Shown piece by piece: positions 2,368-22,200 of a DNA stretch of 44,116 bases (position 1 is its first letter; each line of letters opens with the position of its first letter). This DNA is from a virus. The stretch lies in IMG/VR virus record IMGVR_UViG_3300047557_002997, positions 1 through 44,116 of that record. One strand, written 5' to 3'. The notes beneath the pieces are model-generated. The model did no database searches. It worked only from the letters and a program-made list of their open reading frames with translations, and was not told the origin of the DNA. A program made the translations under genes and the position numbers.

Positions 2368-3063
2368 ATGGCATATTTAAATCATAATCTTCCAACGATT
2401 ACTTGTTATATTCGTAATGAATTCCTTTATAATCATAAAAAAGGTCACGGTGAGGTAACTTTATGTGATGTACACTCTGTAGCGTCCTTAGAGAAGCATG
2501 TACCACTCTTTGAAGCGTTTTTAGAGAATGGTGTGAATTGGACAAGAAGACCCATTCATGCATTTTGTTGGAAACCCGATGCACCAGTTCCTGAATTAGA
2601 GGAGTGTATGTGGTGGGATTGCTTTTCTCCATATATTGATGTTCAAGTTCGTTCAAGACTGGCTAACTTACGCGCTGAATTGATCAATTATCGTGGAGAA
2701 AAGAATGAAGGAATCTATATGTTCACTCTCGATTGGTCATGGGAGTCAAAATCTACTCTGAATACTAACTTTAGTGAGACACCAGAGCATAAATGTGCTC
2801 ATTTTTTCAAGATGGATAATGGAAATTTCTATGCATATCCAAATAATAAAATATTATGGTATGATGATGCATGGACTAAGAATAGAATTACCAAAAATCC
2901 AGGTTATGAAATTGACTTAACCGAATACTCTGTTGAAAATCGTCGCAAAATTGAAACATCAGACGATTTTATGTACGAAATCACGAAAATTTGGGATAGC
3001 AACCCCGTAAAAAGTTCTGATTTTAACGAATCAGGAGCACACAATGACCAAAAAAGTCGATAA
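2368..3063 (+). CDS. Conserved hypothetical phage protein, 231 aa
   Basis: The ATG at 2368 directly follows the terminator. The protein begins MAYLNHNLPTITCYIRNEFL and is rich in Trp and aromatic residues, including ECMWWDCFSPYIDV and MFTLDWSWESK. It has no membrane segment, signal peptide or nucleotide-binding motif that I can see. Its position just before gp25, with an 85-residue partner overlapping its end by 20 nt, is one I associate with marine T4-like phages, where it remains uncharacterised. I do not assign a function. A reverse-strand open frame (2399-2656) lies wholly inside it and is a shadow. Confidence 0.8.
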   Translation: MAYLNHNLPTITCYIRNEFLYNHKKGHGEVTLCDVHSVASLEKHVPLFEAFLENGVNWTRRPIHAFCWKPDAPVPELEECMWWDCFSPYIDVQVRSRLANLRAELINYRGEKNEGIYMFTLDWSWESKSTLNTNFSETPEHKCAHFFKMDNGNFYAYPNNKILWYDDAWTKNRITKNPGYEIDLTEYSVENRRKIETSDDFMYEITKIWDSNPVKSSDFNESGAHNDQKSR

Positions 3064-3324: not shown

Positions 3325-3726
3325 ATGCCACTAGAGCGGGTCAGTAAAGGATTTAAAGACCTGAGTATGACTTTTCAGGCCAATCCACTCAATTATGACT
3401 TAATTGCTCTGAAAAATGAGACTGCTATTTCTCGCTCTATTCGAAATTTAGTATTTACATATCCAGGAGAAAAATTTTTTAATGAAAATCTAGGTTCAAA
3501 AGTAAGTCGTTCTCTTTTTGAAAATATTGATGAGATATCCGCTTCAATCATTAGAGATGAAATTGAAACTACAATTACAAGTTATGAACCAAGAGTGAAT
3601 TTAATCTCAGTAGATGTAGCACCAAATTACGATAACAATGAATTTAATGTTACTATAAACTACAGAATTATAGGTATTGATGTTTTGCCTCAACAGTTAT
3701 CATTCGCACTTCAGCCAACAAGATAA
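3325..3726 (+). CDS. 25: Baseplate wedge subunit gp25
   Basis: At 133 residues it is nearly the size of T4 gp25 (132). The middle shows the features of the gp25/GPW family: SIRNLVFTYPGEKFFNENLG, then an ...ETTITSYEPRVNL segment with the conserved EPR. In T4 this protein links the wedge to the sheath and tube side of the baseplate and starts sheath assembly. It is the first gene after the late promoter at 3297. Its TAA (3724-3726) is directly followed by the gp6 ATG, so the two are likely coupled. Confidence 0.93.
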   Translation: MPLERVSKGFKDLSMTFQANPLNYDLIALKNETAISRSIRNLVFTYPGEKFFNENLGSKVSRSLFENIDEISASIIRDEIETTITSYEPRVNLISVDVAPNYDNNEFNVTINYRIIGIDVLPQQLSFALQPTR

Positions 3727-5637
3727 ATGGCATTAGTTAATTTTACTAATTTAGACTTCGATCAAATAAAAAGTTCAATTCGTGAGTATTTAAGAGCGAA
3801 TTCGAACTTTACTGACTATGATTTTGAAGGATCTAATCTTTCTACTTTAATAGATGTTTTAGCATATAATACATATATTTCCTCATATAATGCTAATATG
3901 ATTAGCAATGAGGTCTTTATTGATGGTGCAACTCTCCGAGAAAATGTAGTTTCTCTTGCACGTAACATTGGATATGTTCCTCATTCTCGTTCAGCATCAA
4001 AAGCAAATATTTCTTTCTTTGTAGATACGACAGGATTCTCTACAAATCCTATTACACTAACATTAAAAAATGGTGTTGTTTGTACATCAAATACTACTTT
4101 TGGAAATCAAAGTTTTTCTTTTATCATTCCACAGGATATTACAGTTCCTATAGTAAATGGAATTGCTTTGTTTGAAAATATCAACATTTATGAAGGAACT
4201 TATATTGTTAATAATTTTACAGTTGATGCAAATAATCCAAATCAAAAATTCATTTTGGATAATGCAAATATTGATGTAGATTCTATCAGTGTTTTTGTAA
4301 GAGATACTCAGTCAAGCACAATTAGGAGTGTATATAAATTATCAAAAAATCTTTTTGAGATTACTTCAGAATCAAGAGTTTTCTTTATTCAAGAAATTCA
4401 AGACCAGAGATATGAATTGATTTTTGGAGATGGTGTTTTTGGTAAAAAACTTTCAAACTTAAATTATATTGAAGTTTCTTACAATGTTACAAATGGTGAA
4501 AGTGGAAACGGAGTTTCTTCATTTAATTTTAATGGACGTATCGTAGATAATAACAATAGAGTAGTTACAACAGGTGTCTCTTTAATCACAACAAACTCTT
4601 CATCTCAAAATGGAAGAGAAATTGAATCTGTTGAGTCTATTAAAAAATATGCTCCAAGAAAATATTCCTCACAGAATCGTGCAGTTACTGCTACCGATTA
4701 TGAAACTATCATTCCTACAATTTATTCCGAGGCAGAATCAATTTCTGTGTTTGGTGGAGAAGATCTAACACCTCCACAATATGGAAGAGTTTTTATTAGT
4801 ATTAAACCAATTAATGGTCCATTTGTTTCAAACCAAGTTAAAGATAATATTGAAAGAGAATTAAGGAGATATGCAGTTGCTGGTATAGTACCAGAAATTA
4901 TTGACCTCAAATACTTATACTTAGAAGCAGACACTACTGCATATTATAATGCAAATGCAACTAATGATTCAAATGAGTTAAAAGATACTATCTTCAACAA
5001 CATTAAAAATTATGCGAATTCAAAAGAACTCAATAAGTATGGAGCGCGATTTAAATATAGCAAATATTTAAAGATTATTGATGATTCAAATAGTGCTATT
5101 ACGTCCAATATTACTAAAGTTGTAATGAGACGTGATTTAAGAGTAAGTCTGAATACGTTTGCGGACTATGAAATTTGTTACGGAAATCAGTTTCATATTA
5201 AAAGTATGGATGGATATAATATTAAATCTTCAGGATTCAAAATTGCAGGAATAAATGACACTCTGTACATTGGAGATACTCCAAATTCTACTGGATTGAC
5301 TGGAAGTATATTTTTCTTTAAATTGCAAGCAGAAAATGCACCAATTGTTGTAAAATCTAACGTTGGTACAATTGATTATGTAAAGGGAGAAATAAGATTA
5401 AACCCAGTGAATATCGTAGCAACTTCAAAAACTTCATTTTTACAACCAATCATTCAAATTTCAGTGGTTCCAAAGTCTAATGATGTAATTGGATTACAGG
5501 ATTTGTATTTGCAACTAGATATTAATAATAGCATATTAAATATGTTATCTGATGAAATTTCTTCTGGTTCAGACGTTTCTGGATCAACATACAAAGTTAC
5601 ATCAAGCTACACTAACGGAGACCTCGTAAGAATATAA
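3727..5637 (+). CDS. 6: Baseplate wedge subunit gp6
   Basis: The protein is 636 residues, close to T4 gp6 (660), and lies directly after gp25 with no gap. The motif FGDGVFGKKL at residues 233-242 is the signature of the gp6/baseplate J family. The N-terminal part (LREYLRANSNFTDYDFEGSN-like start, then IDVLAYNTYISSYNANM) is also typical. In T4, two gp6 molecules with one gp7 form the wedge core that closes into the baseplate ring and moves on contraction. A 4-nt gap separates it from the giant gene, suggesting co-translation and partnership. The reverse-strand frame at 4722-4934 is a shadow. Confidence 0.93.
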   Translation: MALVNFTNLDFDQIKSSIREYLRANSNFTDYDFEGSNLSTLIDVLAYNTYISSYNANMISNEVFIDGATLRENVVSLARNIGYVPHSRSASKANISFFVDTTGFSTNPITLTLKNGVVCTSNTTFGNQSFSFIIPQDITVPIVNGIALFENINIYEGTYIVNNFTVDANNPNQKFILDNANIDVDSISVFVRDTQSSTIRSVYKLSKNLFEITSESRVFFIQEIQDQRYELIFGDGVFGKKLSNLNYIEVSYNVTNGESGNGVSSFNFNGRIVDNNNRVVTTGVSLITTNSSSQNGREIESVESIKKYAPRKYSSQNRAVTATDYETIIPTIYSEAESISVFGGEDLTPPQYGRVFISIKPINGPFVSNQVKDNIERELRRYAVAGIVPEIIDLKYLYLEADTTAYYNANATNDSNELKDTIFNNIKNYANSKELNKYGARFKYSKYLKIIDDSNSAITSNITKVVMRRDLRVSLNTFADYEICYGNQFHIKSMDGYNIKSSGFKIAGINDTLYIGDTPNSTGLTGSIFFFKLQAENAPIVVKSNVGTIDYVKGEIRLNPVNIVATSKTSFLQPIIQISVVPKSNDVIGLQDLYLQLDINNSILNMLSDEISSGSDVSGSTYKVTSSYTNGDLVRI

Positions 5638-5641
5638 TAAA

Positions 5642-8600
5642 ATGACAGAAACCAGAATTAAAATCAGTTCCATCATCGAAAATCAACTACCTCAGTATGT
5701 CTCAGAAGAGTTTCCTCTTGTCTCAGAATTCTTATCGCAATATTACATTTCATTAGAAAGTCAAGGAAATGTAAGCGATATACTTCAGAATATTGACCAA
5801 TATATTAAAGTTGATCAGTTAACAAATTTAATAGATTCGACAACTTTAACTTCAGATGTAACTTTTTTTGATTCTACAATTAATGTAGATTCTACAGCAG
5901 GATTTCCAGATTCTTACGGTCTTTTATTGATTGATTCTGAAATCATTACGTATACTTCAAAAACTTCTACAACTTTTGATGGATGTATACGTGGATTTAG
6001 TGGTGTTACTTCTTATGAAGTAAAAGATCAATTAACTTTCTCGGAAACGGATGCTCAAGAGCATTCAATACTAGATTCTAATGGTGATCCAACTAAAGTT
6101 TTAAATCTTAGTATTTTATTTTTAAAGGAATTTTTAAACAAAATTAAGAAGCAATTTACTCCAGGATTAGAAGAAAGACAACTATACTCTGGATTAAATG
6201 AAGGACTTTTTATAAAGCAATCAATTGATTTTTATTCATCAAAAGGAACTGACAATTCCTTTAAAATTCTTTTTGGTGCTTTGTATGGTGAAAATGTTGA
6301 GGTTATACGACCAAGAGATTACTTAATTCAACCATCAGATGCACAGTATCGTATTACTTCCGATTTAGTTGTAGAAAAGATTGAAGGAAATCCAGAATCT
6401 CTTGTAAACAATACTCTTTATCAAGAAGATTCTGAAGGAAATATAAGTTCACAAGGAACTATTACGCAAGTAGAAAAAATTAGAAGAGGATCTAAAGATT
6501 ACTACATTATAAGTTTAGATTCTGGATATGATAGAGATATTCTACCAATTGGATCGATTTATGGAGAATTTAAAATTAGTCCAAAAACACGAGTTGTATC
6601 TAGAACATCTTCAGAATCAACGACTTTAGAAGTAGACTCTACAGTATCATTTCCAACTTCAAATGGCACTCTTGTTGTTGATCTTGAAAATGGAACCTCA
6701 TTAAACATTACATATAAATCAAAAACATTAAATCAGTTTTTGGATTGTGAGGGAATATCTCAAGATATACCAGAATCTACTGAAATAAAGACAAATGAAT
6801 TTGCATATGGTTATGCAGGTGTTGGAAATACAAATCAAGTAAAGGTAAGGATTACAGGCGTATTATCTGAATTAAATTTGCCAAATGATAGTGCCTTTTA
6901 TTCTGAAGGAGATTCAATTAGGGTAAAATCTTTAGGTTTAAACTCAAAAGATTCTAAATTTAATAACTGGTTTTTTAATATTCCGGTAAAGTATGTTGTT
7001 TCTCAAATTACAATTTCAGACAATGCCGATGCAGGTAAATTATATAATATTACATTATTTGACGATCATTCTTTTAAAATTGGTGATTCTGTAACTTTTA
7101 TACCTTCTTCCGGAAATACGCAGACTTCTGATTTAACGGTTAATGTAATTTCTTTTATTAATGAAAAATCTTTTACTGTTCAATTTGGTTCAAATCAAAG
7201 TGGACTGGATCCTAATTTAACTTATACAGTAAGAAAAAATTTATCTAAAGTATTATCCAAAAATTATCCTTCTGTTAGTAAATACACTTCTAATGTGCAA
7301 AATATTTACTTAGATACTGACGGGTCTTTATATGCAACTTCACCTTCACTTCCAACTTATTCGGATCAAGGTTCGCAGATAAATTTGCAGATAAATGATC
7401 GATCAGTAGTTTTTAGTGGAACCTTTACAGGAACAATTCTTAATATTGGTAATCATGGTTTTTATACGGGAGATTCAATTGTATATAAACCAACTACGAA
7501 TAATACATTAGGAATTTCTACAGGAATTTATTTCATTAAAAAGGTAAGTGCAACTGAAGTAAAACTTGCAAGAAGTAGAAATAATATTTTTACAGAAAAT
7601 TTTGTAGCAGTAAATGGTTCCGTTACAAATGCAAAGTTTGAACTTACCGACTTTACATATGGAGATTTGAGTACTCAATTACTTGAATCGCAAAAATTAA
7701 TTAGAAAAATTTCTAGTCCAGAAATTGATAAAATTACTCATGAAACTAATCCGGGATTAACGGGTATTTTTATTAATGGAGTTGAACTTTTAAATTATAA
7801 ATCAAAAGATAATGTTTATTATGGACCAATTCAAAGTATAGTTCCATCTGCACCTGGATCTGGATATGATGTTATAAATCCTCCAGTTTTATCTATTATT
7901 GATCCTGTCGGATCTGGAGCTACAGGATATTGTTCCGTAATTGGTAAATTAGAAAAAATTAATCTTATAGATTCTGGATTTGATTATATTGGAGAACCAG
8001 TAGTTGAAATTATTGGAGGCAATGGTTCTGGCGCGGTTGCAGAAGCAAACTTAGTGACTTTAGAACATAATGTTGTTTTTAATGCACAATCTAATGCAAA
8101 TTTAGTTCAACTAAATCCAATCAATAAGGTAGGATTTTCTAGTTATCATAAATTTAGAAACGCCGAAGAAGTAGTATATGTAACAGATGGACAGAATTCT
8201 GTTGGTGGATTATCAACGAATTCAACATATTTTGTATCTCCGCAAGATCTATACAATGTAAAATTACATAAATCTTATTTTGACGCAATTGCTGGTATTA
8301 ATACAGTTCAACTAACTTCTTATGGAACTGGAAATCATTCTATTAAATCAAAAAACTTAAAGAAAAAAATAGGATCGATTACTGTTGTAAATTCTGGATC
8401 AAATTATCAAAACAAGTTAACTGTTACGAGCACAAGTGGTATTAATACTGCATCAAATAGTATTTCGATTCCAAATCATGGATATGAAAGTGGAGAAATA
8501 ATCGTATATAATTCCACAGAAACTTCAATTGGAGGTTTATCTTCATCCACTTCTTATTATGTGACTAAGATTACTGATGATGAATTTAAATTATCTGAAA

Positions 8601-11600
8601 TTGGCGTAGGATCTAGTGATTCTCTATATTTTATTACCAAGCAGTACATTAATTTAACATCAGTTGGTAGTGGCAATCATAAATTCAATTATCCAGAAAT
8701 TAAGGTATCCGTTAAGGGACAAATAGGAGTTTCGACTTTTTCCGGCCAAGATTTTAATGCAGTCATTCAACCAATCTTCAGAGGAGAAGTACAATCTGTA
8801 TTTGTTTCTTCTGAAGGAACAAACTATGGATCAGAAGAAATTATTAACCATAACAGACAACCTTTATTTGAATTAAATTCTGGATCTAAAGCAGAAATTA
8901 CTCCAATAGTTTCAGATGGAAAAATTATTGAAGTATTAGTGAAGAATGTTGGAAGTGGATACAATTCTCCACCTGATCTTCAAATTAATGGAGTAGGAGT
9001 AGGTGCTTTGTTAACTCCAATCATATCCAATGGACAGTTGATCGAAGTCAAAGTAATTAATGGTGGTGTAAGATACGAAAACGAAAATACATCTATAACA
9101 GTTAACGCAGCAGGAACTGGAGCTAAATTTGAGGCACGAATTAAACCTTGGAAAGTTAATTTGGTTCAAAGATTGATAGAAAGTTCTAAAATAAATGAAG
9201 ATGACGGAATATTAACTGATGGCTTAAATGAAGATTATGGCCTTCAATATGCTCATGCATATTCTCCAAGAATTCTAAGACAATCTGTTCAAGCAACTTC
9301 TTTTAGAAAAGGCAAAAAAATATTTGTTCCCGATTTGCAACGTTTTGGTAGTGAAGAATTAACATCACAATCTCATTCTCCAATTATTGGTTGGGCTTAT
9401 GATGGGAATCCAATTTATGGTCCTTATGGATTTACATCAAAAACAGGAGGATTTGTTAAATCTTTAACTTCAAGTTATGAGTTACAATTAAAAGAAAACA
9501 GACCCAGTACATCCATTTATCCTCAAGGGTTTTTTGTTGAAGATTATTCTTATACTGCTAATGGAGATTTGGATGAGCACAACGGAAGATTTGGAATTAC
9601 TCCTGAGTACCCAAATGGAGTTTATGCGTATTTTACAACTATTAACAGTGGATTGGTAGAATCAACAGGATTATTCGCTAACTATAAAAAACCAATCTTT
9701 CCTTATGTAATTGGACCTACTTATAAATCTAAACCAATTGATTTTAACTTTGATACTACATCAAATCAAGATTATATTGATGTAAATCAGACAGAATGGA
9801 AAAGAAATGTTAGTTCGTACAATTTACCACTATGTGATTGGATTTTTAATCCAAATGAAGTTAAAAGTCAAACTTCTATAGTCAAAAATATTTCTAAAGG
9901 ATCTTTAGATTCTATAGGAATTACAACAGGTGGTCAAAACTATAAAGTAGGCGACCTAATAATTTTTAACAATGATTCCGAATATAATTCACAACAATCT
10001 AGAGCAAAAGTTTCTTTAATTAAAGGAAAATCTGTAAATCAAATTAGTGTTGCAACTTCATCTTTTGAAAATGTCCAACTTTATCCTAATGGACAACAAT
10101 TTATAGGTTTTACAACAATTGTTCATAATTACCTGAATAATGATTTAGTTACATTTACTGGTAAAAATGATTATAAAAAATTTACTAATATAAGTGTTAG
10201 AGAAAATAATCTCATTATATCATCAGGTATTGGATCTGCTCAACATACTGGATTGGTTACTTATTTTAATGTTATTGGTAATTTAAATTATCCAGATATT
10301 AAAGAAAATGATCTTTATCAAATTGAGAATGAACAAATAAAGATTCTAAATATCGACCAGAAATCTTCTAGGATTAGAGTTATTCGTAATCAAAATGGAA
10401 CTACGGGAATAACTTCATATAAAATTGGAACTCCTATTGTCGAAAAATCAAAGAAATTTGGATTGAGTTTTGGCATTTCTACAACATATAATTTTAATAT
10501 TGATCGTGAATTTTATTTTGATCCTAAAGAATCTGTTGGATTGGGAACAACATCTGGTGTTGGAATTGTTAGTACGATTTATTTTTCAAATCCAGGTGTT
10601 GGAGTTACTCAATTAACTATTCCAACACAATCAATTTATATTGAAAATCACAATTTAAAAACTGGAGATTCATTAATTTATTTTTCAAATGGAGGAAATC
10701 AAATTTCTGTCTCCACTGATGGCGTTTCAGTTTTTCAATTAACAGATAAGTCAATAGTTTATGCTGCAAAGATCACTAACGATTTAATTGGAATTTCGAC
10801 AGTTCAAGTTGGACTGGGATCGACCGGTACTTTTGTTGCTGTTGGATCTTCTACCTCACAAAATAGTATTTTATATTTTACTTCAGTTGGAACTGGTGCC
10901 ACTCATAGTTTCAAGACAAATTATTCAAATACTTTAATAGGAAAAGTCAGTAAAAATGTAGTAACAGTTTCTACTGCAGAAACTCATGGATTATCACTAT
11001 TTGATAACGTAATTATTGATGTAAAATCTGGAATTTCTACAACAGTTGCTGTTAAGTATAATGATTATAATAGAAGATTAACATTAAATCCAAGAACTTT
11101 TTCCTCAATAGATAATGGTGACAATATCATTACAATTAATAATCATGGTTATTATGATGGACAAAAAGTAATATGTACTTCAGGATCTACATCAATCAAT
11201 CAAGGAATCTATTATGTCGTAGTTATAGATTCAAATAGGATTAAACTATCAAATAGTTTTTATCAGGCTACAAAATTAAATCCGGAAGTTGTTGGTATAG
11301 GTTCTACAACTTCTGGAACTATTTTACCAATCAATCCTCCTTTAAATTTAACAAGAAATCAAACAGTAATTTTTGATTTATCAGATTCTTCATTGTCTTA
11401 TAAAAACAATTCTATCGCTTATTCTGCATTTGATCTTAAGTTTTACAAAGATGGTGAGTTTAATGAAGAGTTTGATACAACTAAATCATCAAGTGTTTTT
11501 GAAGTAATAAAGTATGGAAAAGTTGGAATTGACTCTGAAGCAAAGATCGTATTAACCTTAAATGATAATATTCCTACAAATTTATATTATAATTTAATTC

Positions 11601-14600
11601 CTCTTGATTTAAATTTAAACTCTCAAATTAAAAAAGATATTATACAAGATAAAGATGTAATTGGTTCAAATAAAATAACTTTACAGGAAAGTGCATATAA
11701 TGGAAGTTATTCTATTGTTGCTATTTCCTCAAATACTTTCAATTATAATGTATTAGGAATTCCGGAGTCTTCATCTTATTCAAGTGGCATTGAATATTAT
11801 ACAAACTCTTTGAGTGCAAAAGGTCCTATTCAAGAGATTTCAATTTCAAAGAATGGTAGTTACAAATCACTTACGAATACATATTCAATTTCGTCGGAAG
11901 ATGGATTTGATGCAGTACTAGAACCTAATTCAATTTCTATTGGAAAAGTAAAAAATATTGAAATTGAAGATATTGGTTTCGATTATCCGACTGACTATAG
12001 TATTAGACCAATAGCAAAATTTCCAAGTTTCTTAGTATTAGAAGCATTATCTTCATTTGACTATATTGGAGTGTCTTCTAATGGAAGAAATTATAATATT
12101 CCACCATCACTCGTAGTTATTGATGGTTTAACAAATAAAGTTATTGATGATATTGATTTATCTTACGACTTAGGAGACTCTAGAGTTACTATAAGAAAAA
12201 ATAATACGTCAATTAATAACATAAAACCAAAAATAATACCAACAAATAATTCAAATGGTGTTAATATTAAAAATATTGTATTTGATAGTTCATCAAAAGA
12301 TGTAAAAGTAACTTTAGGAGCAAGTTTTAGTGATCCTCAAGATTATCCTTTTGCAGTCGGAAGCAAAGTTTTAATTGAAAATACAAGTGTAGGAATTGCT
12401 ACTACTGGAAAAGGATACAACTCTGCAAATTATGATTATGCTCTTTTTACTCTAACTGCAGTAGATCCAAACCTTGGAGGAACTATTGGAACAGTTACTT
12501 ATAATTTATCATCGTATTTAAACGATGGCGAAGTTCCGGGCATGTTTAACAGTTTATATTCTGCAGGAAAAATAATTCCAGAATCTCATTTTCCAATTTT
12601 TGATCCTGTTCTTAAAAAGAATAATTTCTATGTTGGAGAAACTGTCTACTCATCAACATCAATTGGAAAAGTAGAATCTTGGGATACTACTAATCAATAT
12701 CTTAAAGTTTCTACAATTGATGATTTTGCTCCCGGAGAATTTGTAAGAGGCGAAACAACTAATTCTGTTGGTATTGTCAAAAAAGTATTATCATTTGAAA
12801 CCGATTATAAAGTTGGCGCAATTTCTAAAGTTAAAAAAGGATGGTACAAAGAGACAGGATTTTTGAATAATGATCTTCAAAGAGTACATGATAGTGATTA
12901 TTACCAATATTTTTCATATGCACTTAAATCAAAAAAAGATTTGAATGTATGGGATAATCCCGTAAGTTCTTTAAATCATACTGCAGGATTTAAAAAATTT
13001 GGCAATTTAATTATAGAGTCAAGAGCAGATAATATAGGAATTTCAACAAATCAAAATCAAGGTGATTTTGTTGGAATTGCAGACTTATCTAGAGTTATTG
13101 ATTTAAACTGCGTTTATGATTTTGATCTTGCACTAGAAAATAATCTTTTAATTGATGACACTATTAAATCAAATGAAATTTTATTTAATTCCAAAATTAT
13201 TCAAGACTATATTGAATCTATTAGTAATAGAGTTTTAATGATTGATGACATTTCAAATCAATTTAATAGTAATCCAAGATCAACTCCATTTAGTGTTATT
13301 GACTCTTTTAATCTTGATGATTTTAGATCACAAAAATATTTTATTGCAATACAAGACAAAAAATATACTAATGAAATTCAAATTTCATTAGTATCATTAA
13401 TTCATAATAATAACGTTGGATTTATAAACCAATATGGTACATATTCATCAAATGATCTAGGATTTTTTGATTTTAGTATTACCGGAAACAATGGAAATTT
13501 ATTGTTCTATCCAAATAAGTTTAAAATTAACGATTACTATGCATCAAATCTATCATTCTCACTAAATGATGTGATTAGTGGAGTTGGAACAACTGATTTA
13601 GGAACTTCTGTTAATATTAGAACTACTACTTCTACCATACCAACAGGTACTAATACAGCAACAACAATAGTTAGTGTTGCATCGACCTATAGATCATCAA
13701 AAGTTTTAGTTCAAATTGGAGCAACAAATTCCTCTTATTATGAATATGATGAAATAACTTATATTCATAATGGATCTGAAGTTTTCTTTATTGATTATGG
13801 ACAATTAGCTACAGATGGTTTTGGATCAAGATCAACTTCAGGAATAGGAACATATAATGCATATATTTCTGCAAATAATGTGATAATTGATTTAATACCA
13901 GATAATTCTACAACGGTTGATTATGTGGTTAATACTTTTAATGTTTCTCTTGCTAATACAAGTTTAAGTGGAATTGGAACACAAATAGTTGGTGGAGCTT
14001 ATCTAGATTCTTCTTCGGTAGGAATTGCGTCTAGTGCTTCTCCAATAGCAAATACAATTGCAAGTTATTCTAATGTCAATAATAACTGCTCATACTCGAT
14101 TATAAGTATTGAAGACAAAACAAACTCACAATATCAAATTTCTGAATTCGTAACAATTACAGATTCATTTAATAATAAGTGTTATACAACTGAATTTGGA
14201 ATCTTAAATTCTAATAACTCTTTGGGGGTAACAACTGCCAATATTTCAGGATCAACTACAAAAACTTATTTTACTCCAATTGCGGATATTGATGTTGATG
14301 TTAAAGTTTTCCAAGTTGCATTATCTTTAAAAGAAGACTCAGATAGTATATCATTAATCAATGGAGGTTTACATTATGATTATGGAGATTACACTGGAAC
14401 AGATAACGATATTAAAAAGAACTTTAATTTAACTCATAAAAATAATCCGATTTTCCAAAGATATTTTGATGGTGGCAATTCTTCCATAGTAAGAGCATCT
14501 ACAGATGTTATCAGAATTGCTAATCATTTCTTTGTTACTGGAGAGGAAGTTGAATATTCTTATTCAGGAACTGGATCAAGTCCCATTGGAATCGCAACGA

Positions 14601-17600
14601 CTTCTATACCTGGTATTGGAACAACGGATAAATTACCATCAACTTTATACATTGTTAAAATTAGTGATCTTGATGTTCGAGTGGCATCTTCAGCATCCAA
14701 TGCTCTCAAACCAATTCCAGAAGTTTTAGATATAACCTCTGTTGGAATAGGAACTTCTCACTTTTTAACCTCAAAGAATCAAAATAATAAATCAATTATT
14801 AGTATTGATAATTTAATTCAGTCACCTATTGCAGGAACTGCCATTACAACAACTCTTTCAAAAAATGTTGGATTTTTTGAAACGCAAGTATCAGTTTCTG
14901 GAATTAATTCAATATTTGGAGGAGATTTGATTAAAATTGATGATGAAATTATGAAAGTTACTTCAGTTGGTGTTGGAAGTACAAATGTATTTTCTGTTTT
15001 TAGATCTTGGTTAGGAACTGGATTATCAACACATATATCACCTACTCTTGTCACAAAAATTATAGGAAATTACAATATTGTCGATAATGTAATTTATTTT
15101 GACGAGGCACCTTATGGAAAAGTTCCTATTGTAAGTGAACTATCAAGATATGATGAGATTGATTATATTGGAATTGCAACTGGATCTTCATTTACTGGAA
15201 GAGTATTTTTAAGATCTGGAGAAGAAGATACATTATCGGAAACTTATGCCAAAAATTACATATTTGATGATATTTCAAATAACTTTAATGGTATAGATAA
15301 AACTTTTACTTTAAAATCAGACAGATTAAACATTGCTGGAATATCGACTGATAATGCCATCGTTTTAATTAACAATATATTCCAAGGGCCAAACGCACCA
15401 AATATTACTGACAACTATAATTTGACAGAAAACGTCGGAATTACAAGTATTACTTTTACAGGAAATTCAAGTTCAGGAACTTATGATATAAACTCCAGAG
15501 ATATTCCTAGAGGTGGAATTATTTTATCAGTAGGTTCCACTGAGGGATTTGGTTATCAACCACTTGTAGCAGCAGGTGGAACGGCGATAGTATCCTCTGC
15601 AGGAACAATTCAATCAATTAGTATTGGAAATAGTGGATCTGGTTATAGAGTAGGAATTCAAACCGTTGTGCGTGTTGGTGTTAAGACAGAAAGCATTGGA
15701 ATTCCGAATATTGAATTTATTGGAACTGCAACAGTAAGTAATGGTCACATAGTTAGTGTTGCAGTTACTAATCCAGGTGTTGGATATACTTCATCAAATC
15801 CTCCTATTGTTGTCTTTGATTCTCCATTATCATATTCAAACATTCCTTTAGTTTATAGTTCTAAATCACCATCAGGTGTTGGAACGGGTGCTGTAGTAGA
15901 CATTGTTGTTGGTCAAGGTTCAAGTGTCATTTCATTTGAATTGAAAAATTTGGGATATGGTTATAAACAAAACAATGTTTTAACGGTTTCTATTGGAGGA
16001 ACGATTGGAATTCCAACAAATACTTCTTTAAGTTTTTCAGAATTCCAAATTACTGTTGATAAAATTCAGTCAGATAACTTTGCTGCCTGGTCAGTTGGAA
16101 GACTTCAAGTAATTGATCCATTAGATAATTTGTTTGATGGTAATAGAACAACATTCCCAATTCTTATTAGTGGCAATCGAACATCAATCAGATCCAAAAA
16201 AGGATCAAACATTGATGTTCAAGCAACTTTATTGGTCTTTATCAATGATGTTCTTCAAGTTCCAGGAAAAGGTTACATATTTAAAGGAGGAAGTACTATA
16301 AGGTTTGCAGAACCTCCAAAAGAAGGAGATACTTCAAAACTTTTATTCTATAGAGGAACCGGAGATGTGGATACTCAAGATGTGGATATATTGGAAACAA
16401 TTAAAGTTGGCGACAATGTATCTTTAAAGGATGATAGTATCATTTTAACACAAGATGGAAGAATTGTTACAGAAGTTGTTTCTTCAGATACAATTAATAC
16501 TAATTTATACTCAGGTCCGGGAATAACTGAGGATGAAACATTACTCAGACCATTGACGTGGTGTAGGCAAACACATGATCTATCTGTAAATGGATCCTAT
16601 GTTGGTAAAGATAGAATCATTTATGAACCATATGTCCAACCAACTACAAATATTATTCAAAACATAAGTACAGGATCAACTCAAATTTTTGTAGAGAGTG
16701 TTAAAGCATTTTTTGATAGTAAAAAAGAGTATGTTCATGATGGAATAACAGAAAAACCACAAAATAAAATTTTGATCATATCTCAAGACACTATAACATC
16801 TGCTACTGCTACTGCTATAGTGTCTTCTTCGGGAACAGTTTCTTCCATTGTTATTTCTGATGGTGGAGTTGGATATTCAACTACACCTACGGTAACTATT
16901 GCAGGTCCAATTGGTTTTGGAACAACTACTGCACAAAACACAGCAAAAGCATCTGCAACTATATCTGGAGGAGTTGTCACGGGAATTGCAATAACAGTTG
17001 CTGGACTTGGTTATTTTTCTTCTGATCCACCTACAGTCTTAATCGAATCTCCATCATTCAAATATGAATCTATTGATAAAGTTTCTTATGAAGGTGACTT
17101 TGGAGTGATTACCGGAATTAAAACTACTTCAGTAGGAGTTGCATCAACTGGAATAGTATTTGATTTCTTCATTCCAAAAGATTCTATTATTAGAGATTCT
17201 AATACAGTAAAAGTTGGAATTGCTACAACAGGAATTAGTGGTATTCAAACTGGTTATTACTTTGTAGTATCTAAATCAAATGTTGGTAAAGGACTCACAT
17301 CACTCAACTCATCTGGTGGTGTTGTAGGTGTAGGAACAACATTTATAGACAACATCTATCAAGTTGCTGCTGTATCAATTGCACAAACTGCAGTTCCTGG
17401 TATAGGTATTACTAACGTCGCTAAAGTTACTGTAAGTGTATCTGAATACAATGGTTTAACTGGACTTGGATTTAGTGATTTCTATGGCGAATATAGTTGG
17501 GGAAGAATTTTAGCACCAACTCGTAAAAAACCTAGAGAATTCGCAACATATGCAAACACTGGGGGAATTTCATCTTCACCTACAATTCAAAGATATAATA

Positions 17601-17632
17601 GATTGAAGTATATTGGTTACTCAACATCATAA
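5642..17632 (+). CDS. Giant baseplate wedge-associated protein, 3,996 aa (gp7 position)
   Basis: This one gene fills 27% of the window, and the protein is about four times the length of T4 gp7 (1,032). The N-terminal 65 residues (IENQLPQYVSEEFPLVSEFL, then a QNIDQYIKVD segment) and a conserved stretch around 160-245 (KQFTPGLEERQLYSGLN, GTDNSFKILFGALYG) look like the baseplate-binding head of the family. The rest is mostly beta-rich repeat modules. GxGY repeats lie near residues 730-806, 1050-1180, 2063-2163, 3320-3397 and 3733-3804. NHG-type modules lie near 603, 945, 1668, 1833 and 2960. Metal-site-like EIIxYT modules lie near 67-130, 320-380 and 3073-3137. A YHYH-like domain lies at about 1225-1345. 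It lies between gp6 and gp8, so a wedge role is likely; direct homology to gp7 is inference. Receptor contact or a peripheral fibre role is possible. Confidence 0.85.
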   Translation: MTETRIKISSIIENQLPQYVSEEFPLVSEFLSQYYISLESQGNVSDILQNIDQYIKVDQLTNLIDSTTLTSDVTFFDSTINVDSTAGFPDSYGLLLIDSEIITYTSKTSTTFDGCIRGFSGVTSYEVKDQLTFSETDAQEHSILDSNGDPTKVLNLSILFLKEFLNKIKKQFTPGLEERQLYSGLNEGLFIKQSIDFYSSKGTDNSFKILFGALYGENVEVIRPRDYLIQPSDAQYRITSDLVVEKIEGNPESLVNNTLYQEDSEGNISSQGTITQVEKIRRGSKDYYIISLDSGYDRDILPIGSIYGEFKISPKTRVVSRTSSESTTLEVDSTVSFPTSNGTLVVDLENGTSLNITYKSKTLNQFLDCEGISQDIPESTEIKTNEFAYGYAGVGNTNQVKVRITGVLSELNLPNDSAFYSEGDSIRVKSLGLNSKDSKFNNWFFNIPVKYVVSQITISDNADAGKLYNITLFDDHSFKIGDSVTFIPSSGNTQTSDLTVNVISFINEKSFTVQFGSNQSGLDPNLTYTVRKNLSKVLSKNYPSVSKYTSNVQNIYLDTDGSLYATSPSLPTYSDQGSQINLQINDRSVVFSGTFTGTILNIGNHGFYTGDSIVYKPTTNNTLGISTGIYFIKKVSATEVKLARSRNNIFTENFVAVNGSVTNAKFELTDFTYGDLSTQLLESQKLIRKISSPEIDKITHETNPGLTGIFINGVELLNYKSKDNVYYGPIQSIVPSAPGSGYDVINPPVLSIIDPVGSGATGYCSVIGKLEKINLIDSGFDYIGEPVVEIIGGNGSGAVAEANLVTLEHNVVFNAQSNANLVQLNPINKVGFSSYHKFRNAEEVVYVTDGQNSVGGLSTNSTYFVSPQDLYNVKLHKSYFDAIAGINTVQLTSYGTGNHSIKSKNLKKKIGSITVVNSGSNYQNKLTVTSTSGINTASNSISIPNHGYESGEIIVYNSTETSIGGLSSSTSYYVTKITDDEFKLSEIGVGSSDSLYFITKQYINLTSVGSGNHKFNYPEIKVSVKGQIGVSTFSGQDFNAVIQPIFRGEVQSVFVSSEGTNYGSEEIINHNRQPLFELNSGSKAEITPIVSDGKIIEVLVKNVGSGYNSPPDLQINGVGVGALLTPIISNGQLIEVKVINGGVRYENENTSITVNAAGTGAKFEARIKPWKVNLVQRLIESSKINEDDGILTDGLNEDYGLQYAHAYSPRILRQSVQATSFRKGKKIFVPDLQRFGSEELTSQSHSPIIGWAYDGNPIYGPYGFTSKTGGFVKSLTSSYELQLKENRPSTSIYPQGFFVEDYSYTANGDLDEHNGRFGITPEYPNGVYAYFTTINSGLVESTGLFANYKKPIFPYVIGPTYKSKPIDFNFDTTSNQDYIDVNQTEWKRNVSSYNLPLCDWIFNPNEVKSQTSIVKNISKGSLDSIGITTGGQNYKVGDLIIFNNDSEYNSQQSRAKVSLIKGKSVNQISVATSSFENVQLYPNGQQFIGFTTIVHNYLNNDLVTFTGKNDYKKFTNISVRENNLIISSGIGSAQHTGLVTYFNVIGNLNYPDIKENDLYQIENEQIKILNIDQKSSRIRVIRNQNGTTGITSYKIGTPIVEKSKKFGLSFGISTTYNFNIDREFYFDPKESVGLGTTSGVGIVSTIYFSNPGVGVTQLTIPTQSIYIENHNLKTGDSLIYFSNGGNQISVSTDGVSVFQLTDKSIVYAAKITNDLIGISTVQVGLGSTGTFVAVGSSTSQNSILYFTSVGTGATHSFKTNYSNTLIGKVSKNVVTVSTAETHGLSLFDNVIIDVKSGISTTVAVKYNDYNRRLTLNPRTFSSIDNGDNIITINNHGYYDGQKVICTSGSTSINQGIYYVVVIDSNRIKLSNSFYQATKLNPEVVGIGSTTSGTILPINPPLNLTRNQTVIFDLSDSSLSYKNNSIAYSAFDLKFYKDGEFNEEFDTTKSSSVFEVIKYGKVGIDSEAKIVLTLNDNIPTNLYYNLIPLDLNLNSQIKKDIIQDKDVIGSNKITLQESAYNGSYSIVAISSNTFNYNVLGIPESSSYSSGIEYYTNSLSAKGPIQEISISKNGSYKSLTNTYSISSEDGFDAVLEPNSISIGKVKNIEIEDIGFDYPTDYSIRPIAKFPSFLVLEALSSFDYIGVSSNGRNYNIPPSLVVIDGLTNKVIDDIDLSYDLGDSRVTIRKNNTSINNIKPKIIPTNNSNGVNIKNIVFDSSSKDVKVTLGASFSDPQDYPFAVGSKVLIENTSVGIATTGKGYNSANYDYALFTLTAVDPNLGGTIGTVTYNLSSYLNDGEVPGMFNSLYSAGKIIPESHFPIFDPVLKKNNFYVGETVYSSTSIGKVESWDTTNQYLKVSTIDDFAPGEFVRGETTNSVGIVKKVLSFETDYKVGAISKVKKGWYKETGFLNNDLQRVHDSDYYQYFSYALKSKKDLNVWDNPVSSLNHTAGFKKFGNLIIESRADNIGISTNQNQGDFVGIADLSRVIDLNCVYDFDLALENNLLIDDTIKSNEILFNSKIIQDYIESISNRVLMIDDISNQFNSNPRSTPFSVIDSFNLDDFRSQKYFIAIQDKKYTNEIQISLVSLIHNNNVGFINQYGTYSSNDLGFFDFSITGNNGNLLFYPNKFKINDYYASNLSFSLNDVISGVGTTDLGTSVNIRTTTSTIPTGTNTATTIVSVASTYRSSKVLVQIGATNSSYYEYDEITYIHNGSEVFFIDYGQLATDGFGSRSTSGIGTYNAYISANNVIIDLIPDNSTTVDYVVNTFNVSLANTSLSGIGTQIVGGAYLDSSSVGIASSASPIANTIASYSNVNNNCSYSIISIEDKTNSQYQISEFVTITDSFNNKCYTTEFGILNSNNSLGVTTANISGSTTKTYFTPIADIDVDVKVFQVALSLKEDSDSISLINGGLHYDYGDYTGTDNDIKKNFNLTHKNNPIFQRYFDGGNSSIVRASTDVIRIANHFFVTGEEVEYSYSGTGSSPIGIATTSIPGIGTTDKLPSTLYIVKISDLDVRVASSASNALKPIPEVLDITSVGIGTSHFLTSKNQNNKSIISIDNLIQSPIAGTAITTTLSKNVGFFETQVSVSGINSIFGGDLIKIDDEIMKVTSVGVGSTNVFSVFRSWLGTGLSTHISPTLVTKIIGNYNIVDNVIYFDEAPYGKVPIVSELSRYDEIDYIGIATGSSFTGRVFLRSGEEDTLSETYAKNYIFDDISNNFNGIDKTFTLKSDRLNIAGISTDNAIVLINNIFQGPNAPNITDNYNLTENVGITSITFTGNSSSGTYDINSRDIPRGGIILSVGSTEGFGYQPLVAAGGTAIVSSAGTIQSISIGNSGSGYRVGIQTVVRVGVKTESIGIPNIEFIGTATVSNGHIVSVAVTNPGVGYTSSNPPIVVFDSPLSYSNIPLVYSSKSPSGVGTGAVVDIVVGQGSSVISFELKNLGYGYKQNNVLTVSIGGTIGIPTNTSLSFSEFQITVDKIQSDNFAAWSVGRLQVIDPLDNLFDGNRTTFPILISGNRTSIRSKKGSNIDVQATLLVFINDVLQVPGKGYIFKGGSTIRFAEPPKEGDTSKLLFYRGTGDVDTQDVDILETIKVGDNVSLKDDSIILTQDGRIVTEVVSSDTINTNLYSGPGITEDETLLRPLTWCRQTHDLSVNGSYVGKDRIIYEPYVQPTTNIIQNISTGSTQIFVESVKAFFDSKKEYVHDGITEKPQNKILIISQDTITSATATAIVSSSGTVSSIVISDGGVGYSTTPTVTIAGPIGFGTTTAQNTAKASATISGGVVTGIAITVAGLGYFSSDPPTVLIESPSFKYESIDKVSYEGDFGVITGIKTTSVGVASTGIVFDFFIPKDSIIRDSNTVKVGIATTGISGIQTGYYFVVSKSNVGKGLTSLNSSGGVVGVGTTFIDNIYQVAAVSIAQTAVPGIGITNVAKVTVSVSEYNGLTGLGFSDFYGEYSWGRILAPTRKKPREFATYANTGGISSSPTIQRYNRLKYIGYSTS

Positions 17633-17652: not shown

Positions 17653-19203
17653 ATGTCTGCAATTATAACTGATCAACTAAGAATTTTGAACGCGAAGAAT
17701 TTTGTTTCGGTAGCAACTTCTTCGTCAAATTCTTATTATTCTTTTGTTGGTTTAACTAATGCAACTGATTATTCTTCTGTGTGGGAAAGAAATCCACCAT
17801 CTCCTAAGGACAGTTTTGATCAAGAGAATGATTATTGGGATACAATGGTTGCTTTAAAAAAAATTAAAGCAACTGATGTGAGCCAAGTAGTTAAAAAAAC
17901 AACTTGGTCATCTGGAACTACTTATGATATGTATCGTCATGATATCAGTAGAACTAATACATCAAAACCATCTGGAGTAACTAGTCTTTATTCTGCAAAT
18001 TACTATGTAATCAATAGTGACTATAGAGTTTATATCTGCCTTCAAAATGGAACTGATCCAGAAAATCCAAGTGGAAAACCGTCTCTTGATGAACCAATTT
18101 TCACAGATTTAGAACCAAGAGAAGCAGGCGATAGTGGTGATGGATATATTTGGAAGTATCTTTATACGATTAAACCAAGCGAGTTTCTAAAGTTTGATAC
18201 TGTTAACTTTATACCAGTGCCTAAAGACTGGGAAACTAGTTCTGAAAATGCTGCAATAAGAACAAATGCTTCCGCGACTAATAATCAACTCAAAATTATT
18301 ACAATTACAAATCGTGGCGTTGGTGTAGGAACTGCAAATAGAGTATACACAAATGTTCCAATCAAAGGTGATGGAAGTGGAGCAAAAGCAACAATAGTAA
18401 TCAATAACGATTCTAAAGTAGAATCTGTTACAGTTTCTTCTGGTGGAGATGGGTACACTTACGGAACTGTAGATTTAGTTGGAGGAAACGTTCCCACAGG
18501 AACAACAACACCAACTTTTGATGTAATTATTCCACCAAAAGGTGGTCATGGAGCAGATATTTATAGAGAACTAGGTGCTTATAATGTTTTGATTTATTCC
18601 AGAATAGAAAATGATATAGAAAATCCAGACTTTGTAACGGGAAATAAAATTGCAAGAGTGGGCATTGTAGAAAATCCGCAGGCATATAATTCGACCTCAT
18701 TATTGGATATAGAAAAGGCAAGCGCAGTTTATGCATTAAAACTCATTGGAACTGGATACGATACTGCTACCTTTACTGTAAATTCAAGATTTACTCAAAC
18801 TATAAGCACAGGAACAACTGCAGTTGGAAGAGTTATTTCTTATGACCAAAACACTGGAGTTTTAAAGTATTGGCAAGATAAGAGTCTTGCCGGATTTAAT
18901 ACTGATGGATCCCAAAATGCTTCTCCAACTTATGGAATTAACTTAAATAGATTTACAAATTCTGTCGGTGCTGGCGGAACCACGTTTATAACAGGCACCA
19001 ACCTTTATATTGACACTACCTTCACAGGTATATCTACTACAATAAATAATAGAACATATAATCTTGGACAGTCTTTTACTGGTGGTGTAGCAAATCCCGA
19101 GGTTAAAAAATACTCAGGAAATATTATTTACGTTGATAATAGACCATCAATTACTAGATCACAAAACCAAAAAGAAGATATCAAAGTCATTTTGCAATTC
19201 TAA
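17653..19203 (+). CDS. 8: Baseplate wedge subunit gp8, enlarged
   Basis: Several stretches match T4 gp8 as I remember it. The N-terminal part has WERNPPSPKDSFDQENDYWD, similar to the T4 region with a Trp-Thr metal-like turn. GDGYIWKYLYTI (about residues 167-178) corresponds to T4 GDGYVWEYLFEI. The C-terminus GNIIYVDNRPSI...QKEDIKVILQF corresponds to T4 GEMIYMENRPPI...TEEINILFTF. The length is 516 against 334 in T4. Much of the extra sequence lies at about residues 213-296, containing a GxGY repeat (TVSSGGDGYTYG), and about 380-412. In T4, gp8 dimers form part of the wedge below gp7 and gp10. Confidence 0.9.
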   Translation: MSAIITDQLRILNAKNFVSVATSSSNSYYSFVGLTNATDYSSVWERNPPSPKDSFDQENDYWDTMVALKKIKATDVSQVVKKTTWSSGTTYDMYRHDISRTNTSKPSGVTSLYSANYYVINSDYRVYICLQNGTDPENPSGKPSLDEPIFTDLEPREAGDSGDGYIWKYLYTIKPSEFLKFDTVNFIPVPKDWETSSENAAIRTNASATNNQLKIITITNRGVGVGTANRVYTNVPIKGDGSGAKATIVINNDSKVESVTVSSGGDGYTYGTVDLVGGNVPTGTTTPTFDVIIPPKGGHGADIYRELGAYNVLIYSRIENDIENPDFVTGNKIARVGIVENPQAYNSTSLLDIEKASAVYALKLIGTGYDTATFTVNSRFTQTISTGTTAVGRVISYDQNTGVLKYWQDKSLAGFNTDGSQNASPTYGINLNRFTNSVGAGGTTFITGTNLYIDTTFTGISTTINNRTYNLGQSFTGGVANPEVKKYSGNIIYVDNRPSITRSQNQKEDIKVILQF

Positions 19204-19209
19204 AGAATT

Positions 19210-22200
19210 ATGCCACAGGAAACTAACCTCAACGTCTCTCCATATTTTGACGATTTTGATCCAAAAAATGAATATTACAAAGTTCTTTTTAAACCAGGAT
19301 ATCCTATCCAGGCAAGAGAATTAACTACTTTGCAGTCTATTCTACAAAGTCAAATTGAAAAGTTTGGAAATCATATTTTTAAGGAAGGATCTGTTGTTAT
19401 TCCGGGCAATATAATTTATAAAAATGATTTAAATAGTGTAATTATAGAAGACACCTATCAAGGACTTCCATCTAATTTATATCTTGATAGTTTAATTGGT
19501 ACAAGAATAAGAGGAAATGTAAGCGGGGTTACTGCAGTAATTCAGGATTATTTGGATATATCTGGTGATATAAAAAAAATTACCTTAATTGTTAAATATT
19601 TAACATCAGATTCACAAACTAATTCTCAAACATCTTTTATTGATGGAGAAATACTACTAGTTGATGAGGATGTATCTGTAATTGATAAAAGTACCGAGGA
19701 AAATGAAGATCCTACAGAAATTTTACTTCAAAATGGACAAGGATTTGCTGTTACAATTTCACAGAATAGTACTTTTAAGGCATCTTCAGTTTATTTAGAA
19801 GAAGGTGTTTATTATGTCAGAGGACATTTTGTTGATGTTCCAACCAGTATTTTATATCTAGATCCATATTCAAATATTCCAAGTGCTAAAGTAGGACTAA
19901 GAATTTTTGAAGAAATTAGAACTGCATATGATGATGAAAATCTGTATGATAATGCACAGGGGTTTTCTAACTATGCAGCACCGGGAGCAGATAGATTTAG
20001 TATTTTTGCAAAATTAGATAAAATACCATTAGAATCAATTGATACCAATAATTTTGTACAACTATTAGAAATTAATGACGGAAATTTAATTAAAGTTTCA
20101 AATAAAACTCAGTATAATATTGTTTCTCAAGAATTTGCTAGAAGAACTTTTGACGAATCTGGCGATTACTATGTCAATCCTCCAATTATCAAATCTCAAG
20201 AAACTTTAAATAATTTTAAAGGAAATAATGGTATTTTTAATGAAGGTCAATTAACCTATAATGGAAATGTTTCTGATGAAGGACTTGGAACGTATAATGT
20301 TTCACCATTCAAGGCATATGTTAGAGGATATGAAATTGAAACAATAGCACCGACATTTTTAGATTTTCCTAAACCAAGAGAAACAAAAACACTAGAAAAT
20401 CAAGGTATAAATTATTTTACTGGTTCAACTTTTACACTTAATAGAGTATATGGATCTCCCATAGTTAGTATTGCTACTACTTACTATGTAAGTCTTAGAG
20501 ATTCTAGAGTTGGAATATCTTCAACAACTGCTCCAGGTAAAGAAATTGGTCTTGCTAGAGTTTATGATTTTGCTTTAGAATCTGGGTCATATAGCACATC
20601 AAATTCAAAAGAAAATCAATGGGATATTTCTTTATATGATATACAGACATATACTACATTAACTCTAAATGAACCAATAACATTGAGCACACCAGTTCAC
20701 ATTAAAGGAAAAGAGAGTGGAGCTGTTGGGTTTCTTAGATATGATGTTTCAGCAGGAGCAGCGATCACAGTCTATAATTCTCAAGGCAAATTTTCCTCAG
20801 GAGAAAAACTTATTTTTAATGGCATAGAAAATACTAGGGTTACAAAACAAGTTCAATCATATGGAACTGGTGATGTAAAATCTTTATATGGTATTGTTGG
20901 ATCTGCTTATACTTTTACTGGCGATACAGTTCAAAGTGTAAGTGTAGACTTTGGGCAAGTATCAATAACTCCCCGTTCATCAGGAATTAGCACAGTCACA
21001 TCAACTGATAAATTTTTTGTTGGAGTAGCTACTGTAGGAAATTTAGTAGCATTTTCCAATCCAGGACTTTCTGTAAATACTTTTGCTAAAATTGAATCAG
21101 TATCTGATAGATCTTTGACGATTAGTGGAATTACTACGGTTAATGGCGTTTGTGATGGTGCTCTGCCAAACGCAACTATAAATCCATCTAATTTTACAAT
21201 TTTAACAACAAAATTACAATCATCCGAAAGTAATTCTTTATACACTATTTTACCTAAATCATACATATCTAACGTAGATTTATCTAAATCAAATTTAGTA
21301 GTAAGAAAACAGTTTGATGTAACTATTTCCTCAAATTCTACGGGAACTATAAACTTACCAGATAACGAAGTCTTTTTACCATATGATGAAGAAAGGTATG
21401 TTCTAATTGGAAAAAATGGTGAAACAGAATCATTGAGTTCTGATAAGTTTTTATTTACAAATGGGTCAAAATCATTAACAATAAATGGTCTTTCTAATGA
21501 TGGAGATGCAAAATTAATTGCAACTATAAGAAAAGTTGGTGTAAAAGAAAAAATTAAAATTAAAAATAGAGTAAAAACTTTAATCATTGATAAGTCTAAA
21601 TATTCTGCTTCTGGAATTGGATCAACCACATTAAACGACGGACTTACATACGGCAACTATCCTTATGGTACTAGAGTTCAAGACGAAGAAATTTGTTTGT
21701 TTGAACCAGATGTTACTAATGTTTATGGAGTATTTGAATCAAATGACCAAAATGATCCGGATATTCCTTCCGTTATTTTAACATCACTAAGTGGACCCAC
21801 AAATAAAACTTCAGATCTTTTACTTGGAGAAGAATTTATTGGAGAACAGAGTAAATCCATCGCAATATATTCAGAAAAAATTAATGATTTTAAGATAGGA
21901 TTTGCATATTTAAACTCAAATGGTTTCATTGAAGGAGAAAAAGTAACATTTAGAGATTCAAATATTACAGCATTTATTTCAACATTAGATGCTGGTGATA
22001 AAAACATTGCATTTTCTTTTAATCTTGATACAAATCAAAAAGAAACAATATATGATTACTCTAAATTGAATAGAGTTGCAAATGCAAAAGAACCAACAAG
22101 AAAGATAAAAGTTGTTTTTTCATCTGCAAGTTTTTCTACATCAGACACGGGAGATTTGACAACCGTAAATTCATATGAGCAGTTTGATTATCTTGATATA

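Follow-up and report, generated by a model that had tools for sequence, protein, structure and literature searches.

A giant gp7 baseplate wedge protein of a T4-like cyanophage, with a conserved core probably enlarged by repeated β modules

Introduction

Each wedge of the baseplate joins one gp7 to two gp6 chains (PMC6300606), and gp7 orthologues hold receptor-binding components in place (PMC10457771). T4 gp7 comprises 1,032 residues, a length given correctly in the first-pass annotation of the locus described here. Two gp7 orthologues, XM1 gp17 (242 aa) and T6SS TssG, which we compared only through their published descriptions, are very small and carry no module arrays; in XM1 gp17, the scaffold domain is interrupted and loops outside the core anchor the tail spikes (PMC10457771).

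T4-like cyanophages count among the most numerous viruses in the sea; for the family Kyanoviridae, we found no baseplate structure. T4 gp7 has been stated to be absent from cyano- and pelagimyophages and to be replaced by VrlC (PMC7029224). Mass spectrometry of purified virions identified the giant gp7 of S-SZBM1 (S-SZBM1_208, 6,619 aa, 724 kDa) by 71 peptides (PMC9146016), and a wedge protein of 1,937 aa was found in S-CREM2 virions, with 91 peptides (PMC10665884). Proteins of the giant gp7 kind are already annotated and virion-detected in the Kyanoviridae and are not rare.

Here, we analyzed a 44-kb virus fragment from IMG/VR (IMGVR_UViG_3300047557_002997, positions 1–44,116; hereafter the window). 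Its portal protein shares 75–78% identity with its counterparts in S-SM2, Bellamy, SynMITS9220M01 and S-SCSM1, which places the window virus by sequence among the T4-like cyanophages (family Kyanoviridae). What is new is firm evidence that the giant protein encoded in the window is gp7, together with a probable architecture of repeated β modules inside and behind its conserved core.

Results

A single giant gene lies between gp6 and gp8

The baseplate genes of the window are arranged in the order gp25–gp6–gp7–gp8:

3325–3726: gp25, upstream of giant gp7
3727–5637: gp6, upstream of giant gp7 (PHROG 219; Pfam gp6 domains)
5642–17632, plus strand: giant gp7 (baseplate wedge initiator), 3,996 aa, ~434 kDa (open frame, PHROG 2885, independent contig, dN/dS)
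17653–19203: gp8, downstream of giant gp7 (PHROG 438; Pfam Phage-Gp8)

As the first-pass annotation had described, one frame fills the space between gp6 and gp8, running from the ATG at 5642 to the stop at 17632 through 3,996 codons without interruption. In all isolates read, gp7 adjoins gp6. An independent 222-kb contig from a near relative (L350) carries one 3,998-aa gp7 frame at the same position, with 81% amino acid identity and a matching gene order (gp6, 636 aa; gp7, 3,998 aa; gp8, 516 aa). Comparison of the two gp7 genes gave an overall dN of 0.11 and dS of 0.61, with dN/dS ranging from 0.12 to 0.29 in 16 of 16 segments of 250 codons. Together, the independent frame and the low dN/dS throughout exclude a chance frame of this length, and giant gp7 is a genuine single gene under purifying selection. 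In 73 of 80 environmental contigs sharing the gp7 N-terminus, no stop interrupted the frame within the retrieved DNA, in many cases for more than 3,600 codons.

Several relatives are interrupted at one place that is intact in the window:

14330–14390, plus strand: split point near residue 2,900 (B23, L062, L076, L063/L065)

In B23 (L094), L062 and L076, gp7 is split by a frame change, and the C-terminal part forms a second gene starting near residue 2,900; this separate gene indicates, at the sequence level, that the C-terminal part of gp7 is separable. L063 and L065 share an identical in-frame TAG near the same residue. Interruptions at other places were seen in L022 (at 17311), L044 (at 8088) and L074 (at 9627), possibly through sequencing error; that of L022 falls directly after the module at residues 2320–2470, and a new ATG adjoins the stop.

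Giant gp7 proteins are the norm in the Kyanoviridae

The window protein matches PHROG 2885 with 3,508 bits across residues 1–3352. A tblastn search with residues 1–500 retrieved 467 phage records, nearly all from cyanophages and many labelled "gp7, baseplate wedge initiator", and a search with the last 496 residues retrieved 93 records, 74 of which covered at least 80% of the query. In annotated genomes, gp7 measures 3,048 aa in S-PM2, 3,884 in S-CAM9, 4,067 in Bellamy, 4,156 in S-SM2, 4,307 in P-TIM68, 4,446 in P-HM1, 5,195 in P-SSM2, 6,619 in S-SZBM1 and 7,312 in P-SSM4. Short forms occur in the methylophage Melnitz-3 (896 aa) and the pelagiphage Mosig (874 aa), and environmental sequences include length classes of 896–1,027 aa (Melnitz-like) and 2,836–3,477 aa (S-PM2-like). 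Most Kyanoviridae read encode a gp7 of ~3,000–7,300 aa; the first-pass remark that contractile phages have yielded few structural proteins so large is therefore not borne out.

The gp7 proteins of Bellamy, SynMITS9220M01 and S-SCSM1 each form a single alignment with the window protein over its whole length, at 40–45% identity, that of Bellamy spanning residues 1–3993. This whole-chain collinearity means that gp7 is not a mosaic within its own clade. It also qualifies the earlier proposal that conservation is confined to about the first 250 residues: the N-terminal part is indeed the T4 gp7 homologue, but the whole chain is collinear in the clade, and family-wide conserved modules also lie at 1047–1379 (YHYH), 2320–2470 and 3447–3640. 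The giant gp7 proteins of Bellamy (gp111), S-SM2 and SynMITS9220M01 (PHROG 2885) resemble that of the window in position, length (~4,000 aa), collinearity, YHYH domain and module order, differing only by diverged sequence. S-SZBM1_208 and P-SSM4 gp7 share the core and modules, but contain a further insertion of ~500 residues at residue 110, more GGY modules (13–14 copies) and a longer C-terminal extension. The short proteins of Melnitz-3 and Mosig also resemble the window protein in having the two proposed core halves, along with GGY modules (two copies in the 874–896-aa forms), but only ~230 residues separate the halves, and gp7 is followed by a separate gp10-like gene and others before gp8 is reached.

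The N-terminal region is homologous to the T4 gp7 core

The first conserved element of the chain is the following:

5642–6529, plus strand: conserved wedge core, half A (residues 1–296), with a helix-turn-helix at 18–60, helices at 156–215 and a β domain at 237–296 (AlphaFold2, hhalign, PDB profile)

In an hhalign comparison of window residues 1–420, residues 189–293 matched T4 gp7 726–814 with a probability of 96.9% (E 1.8e-10), whereas controls with reversed profiles and with gp6, gp8, gp9, gp10 and gp11 reached at most 0.4%. When a profile of 65 N-termini was searched against 177,635 PDB sequences, it retrieved only T4 gp7 (E 1.6e-4) and KP1 gp7 (E 3.8e-4). The AlphaFold2 model of residues 1–420 had a mean pLDDT of 73, with 53–65 in the first helices, and shows a helix-turn-helix (18–60), a β barrel, helices (156–215) and β domains, the order described for XM1 gp17 (PMC10457771). 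Structural comparison of this model placed T4 and KP1 gp7 among the top matches (Z 8.7, 137–138 residues, 22–25% identity), at an rmsd of 8.5 Å and with Z values tied with those of common barrels. When the N-terminal model was compared with the PDB by Foldseek, only barrel and tail-protein matches were returned, none with E below 0.001, and gp7 did not rank high. By sequence and profile comparison, residues 1–300 of the window protein are shown to be homologous to a segment of the T4 gp7 core, in agreement with the first-pass assignment of the gene as a gp7-position wedge protein with an N-terminal part related to T4 gp7.

Sliding profile comparisons along the whole chain found no match to gp8, gp9, gp10 or gp11, so that the relation to gp10 suggested for checking in the first-pass annotation was not recovered. 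No segment matched T4 gp7 below residue 572, and no counterpart of the 640-residue N-terminal part of T4 gp7 was detected; since XM1 gp17 has only 242 residues, the T4 N-terminal domains (1–640) are not required of the gp7 family. Neither the whole chain nor the YHYH region gave a useful match in a phmmer search of the PDB, and NCBIfam gave no match. The window protein has in common with T4 gp7 its gene position, the core segment 726–814 and probably 863–892, whereas T4 gp7 lacks the 2,000-residue insertion and the long C-terminal extension. With XM1 gp17 and TssG it would have in common the helix-turn-helix core, an interrupted scaffold domain and the wedge-adaptor role.

A probable second core motif lies beyond a 2,000-residue insertion

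Two further features concern the continuation of the core:

6530–12598, plus strand: ~2,000-residue insertion between the inferred core halves (residues 297–2319), with flanks matching near-adjacent T4 gp7 726–814 and 781–893
12599–13051, plus strand: conserved module, proposed as core half B of gp7 (residues 2320–2470; conservation, hhalign, PDB hit)

None of the intact gp7 homologues compared lacks the module at residues 2320–2470; in the 874–896-aa forms, it lies at 534–670. An hhalign comparison of the half-B profile with T4 gp7 781–893 gave a probability of 90% (E 1.6e-6), and 50% (E 1.7e-4) when 204 sequences were used; reversed controls gave 0.1–0.2%. The best PDB hit of the half-B profile was KP1 gp7 862–894 (E 0.042). 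The two motifs are collinear with the order in T4, in which the second (863–892) follows close behind the first. Residues 2320–2470 (at 2420–2455) therefore probably contain the second gp7 core motif. On this basis, it is probable, though not proven, that the core is interrupted by an insertion of ~2,000 residues and followed by a C-terminal extension of ~1,500. The first-pass picture of a conserved start followed by a mosaic would then need amending, with extra mass inside the core as well as behind it. The AlphaFold2 model of a short homologue (L109, 896 aa) had a pLDDT of 47.

Repeated modules and a YHYH domain in the added regions

Iterated profile searches defined five families of repeated modules, with ~22 copies in the window protein. 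Together with two other conserved regions, they are located as follows:

5831–6025, plus strand: β-barrel module, copy 1 (residues 64–128), inserted between core helices (profile hits; model strands 66–135)
6578–6787, plus strand: β-barrel module, copy 2 (residues 313–382), a fold common to phage tail protein barrels and EF-Tu domain 2
7430–7660, plus strand: NHG module, copy 1 (residues 597–673), one of six copies
8123–8368, 8453–8710, 10625–10933, 11120–11347 and 14501–14791, plus strand: further NHG copies (iterated profile search)
7766–8098, plus strand: GGY module, copy 1 (residues 709–819), one of eight copies
8852–9190, 11762–12076, 15536–15871 and 16766–17131, plus strand: further clear GGY copies, with three weaker ones (iterated profile search)
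9359–9652, plus strand: YHYH domain (residues 1240–1337), with YAYF in place of YHYH (Pfam PF14240, 93.9 bits, cut-off 25)
13196–14299, plus strand: three tandem modules of ~115 residues each (residues 2519–2886; iterated profile searches)
15245–15472, plus strand: INN module, copy 1 (residues 3202–3277), with copy 2 at 16094–16321 and one further weak copy
15959–16561, plus strand: conserved C-terminal region (residues 3440–3640), common to P-HM1, P-SSM4 and S-SZBM1

The earlier description of the remainder as a mosaic of β-type modules is upheld as far as many small repeated modules are present, predicted to be β in type where modelled, but not within the clade, in which the order is conserved. 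The number of GGY modules is not strictly proportional to gp7 length, P-HM1 having 13 copies in 4,446 aa. The simplest reading of these sequence data is that gp7 grew by module duplication. A profile of the C-terminal region retrieved nothing useful from the PDB. GGY modules also occur outside gp7: the gp14-like neck/head closure protein (28556–29968) has three, and gp8 and VrlC-C have a single copy apiece.

The YHYH domain has been predicted to act as a metal-dependent hydrolase (PMC7824862), and we found the domain in none of 14 control genomes. In the alignment of gp7 homologues, the columns of H1245, D1254 and D1311 are conserved. The motif reads YAYF in the window protein, and both of its histidines are missing in nearly all aligned homologues, which makes catalysis by the YHYH motif unlikely in these proteins.

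Discussion

We propose that the giant protein is gp7, the scaffold present once per baseplate wedge, with a core enlarged by duplicated β modules, and assign this reading a probability of roughly 0.8. An otherwise normal gp7 core would have been expanded by duplication of small β modules at three places: a small site between the core helices, a stretch of ~2,000 residues separating the two halves and a C-terminal stretch of ~1,500. By analogy with T4 and XM1, the helices of the core would pair with two gp6 chains in a (gp6)2–gp7 wedge, six of which would make up a baseplate, and six chains of 434 kDa would contribute ~2.6 MDa of gp7. The added modules may make up a large shell at the periphery of the wedge, presenting binding surfaces to the tail fibres or the cyanobacterial envelope, and contact at this shell could be coupled to baseplate opening and sheath contraction. 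Host contact by the added modules is plausible but unproven. A weak hint of host interaction comes from the S-PM2 homologue, which gained non-synonymous mutations during coevolution with Synechococcus, a process in which many other genes mutated too (PMC9910659). More tentatively, and with the odds rather against it, the peripheral baseplate of marine T4-like phages might be largely one polypeptide, six gp7 copies forming the outer ring and the surface for host contact, for which T4 uses several separate proteins.

The possibility that the long frame arose through faulty assembly or sequencing, or that several genes became fused by chance, draws on the relatives in which gp7 is broken near residue 2,900. 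The assembly errors that the first-pass annotation had in mind are ruled out by the corresponding single frame of the independent 222-kb contig and by the dN/dS values; the uninterrupted frames of most relatives, the whole-length collinearity with isolates and the presence of the 6,619-aa homologue in virions point the same way, leaving this explanation a negligible probability. Scarcely more credible is the view that gp7 is absent, with VrlC in its place and the gp7 locus taken by an unrelated giant that serves in host recognition. It has the published statement behind it (PMC7029224), and low identity conceals the homology in simple searches. That statement nevertheless conflicts with the profile match of residues 189–293 to T4 gp7, whereas VrlC reached only 0.2% against the gp7 profile and is encoded in addition to the giant, which led us to reject VrlC as the gp7 replacement. 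Finding the gp7 core within the giant corrects the published claim, and it gives structural biologists the boundary in the chain between the scaffold and the added modules.

Two other accounts concern the added part. If it were mainly an enzyme, the YHYH domain would act as a tail-borne metal-dependent hydrolase that opens the envelope. The PF14240 match far above its cut-off and the three retained H/D columns favour such a role, but the lost histidines and the small share of the domain (<3% of the chain) make it improbable. Somewhat better placed, yet still unlikely, is the idea that the giant took over the jobs of T4 gp9, gp10, gp11 and gp12 and exists because those genes are missing. In agreement with it, the gp9/10 N-terminal domain was not found in Bellamy, S-SM2, P-SSM2, P-HM1, S-PM2, SynMITS9220M01, ACG-2014f or the near relative L010. 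The domain is nonetheless present, mostly beside gp7, in P-SSM4, whose gp7 is the longest listed here, and in S-SZBM1, S-SCSM1, P-TIM68 and S-B43, as well as in the short-gp7 phages Melnitz-3 and Mosig, and the giant has no segment resembling gp8, gp9, gp10 or gp11. Because the presence of PF07880 does not track gp7 size, simple replacement of gp10 by giant gp7 was rejected. Across the marine phages searched, a gp9/gp10-type N-terminal domain lies near gp7 in about half and was undetected in the others.

Several neighbouring genes of the window deserve mention beside the enlarged gp7. The VrlC-like protein (PHROG 358) is encoded by two genes (19210–24732 and 24804–27311), the first ending with an Asn/Lys-rich tail; it is likewise divided in the 222-kb relative (L349; 1,838 and 835 aa), whereas Bellamy and S-SM2 encode it in one longer gene. 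A ferredoxin-like auxiliary gene (2368–3063, PHROG 3704) immediately precedes the baseplate genes, and a 646-aa protein with DUF5661 at its start and DUF6321 at its end is encoded between the terminase subunits (31487–33427).
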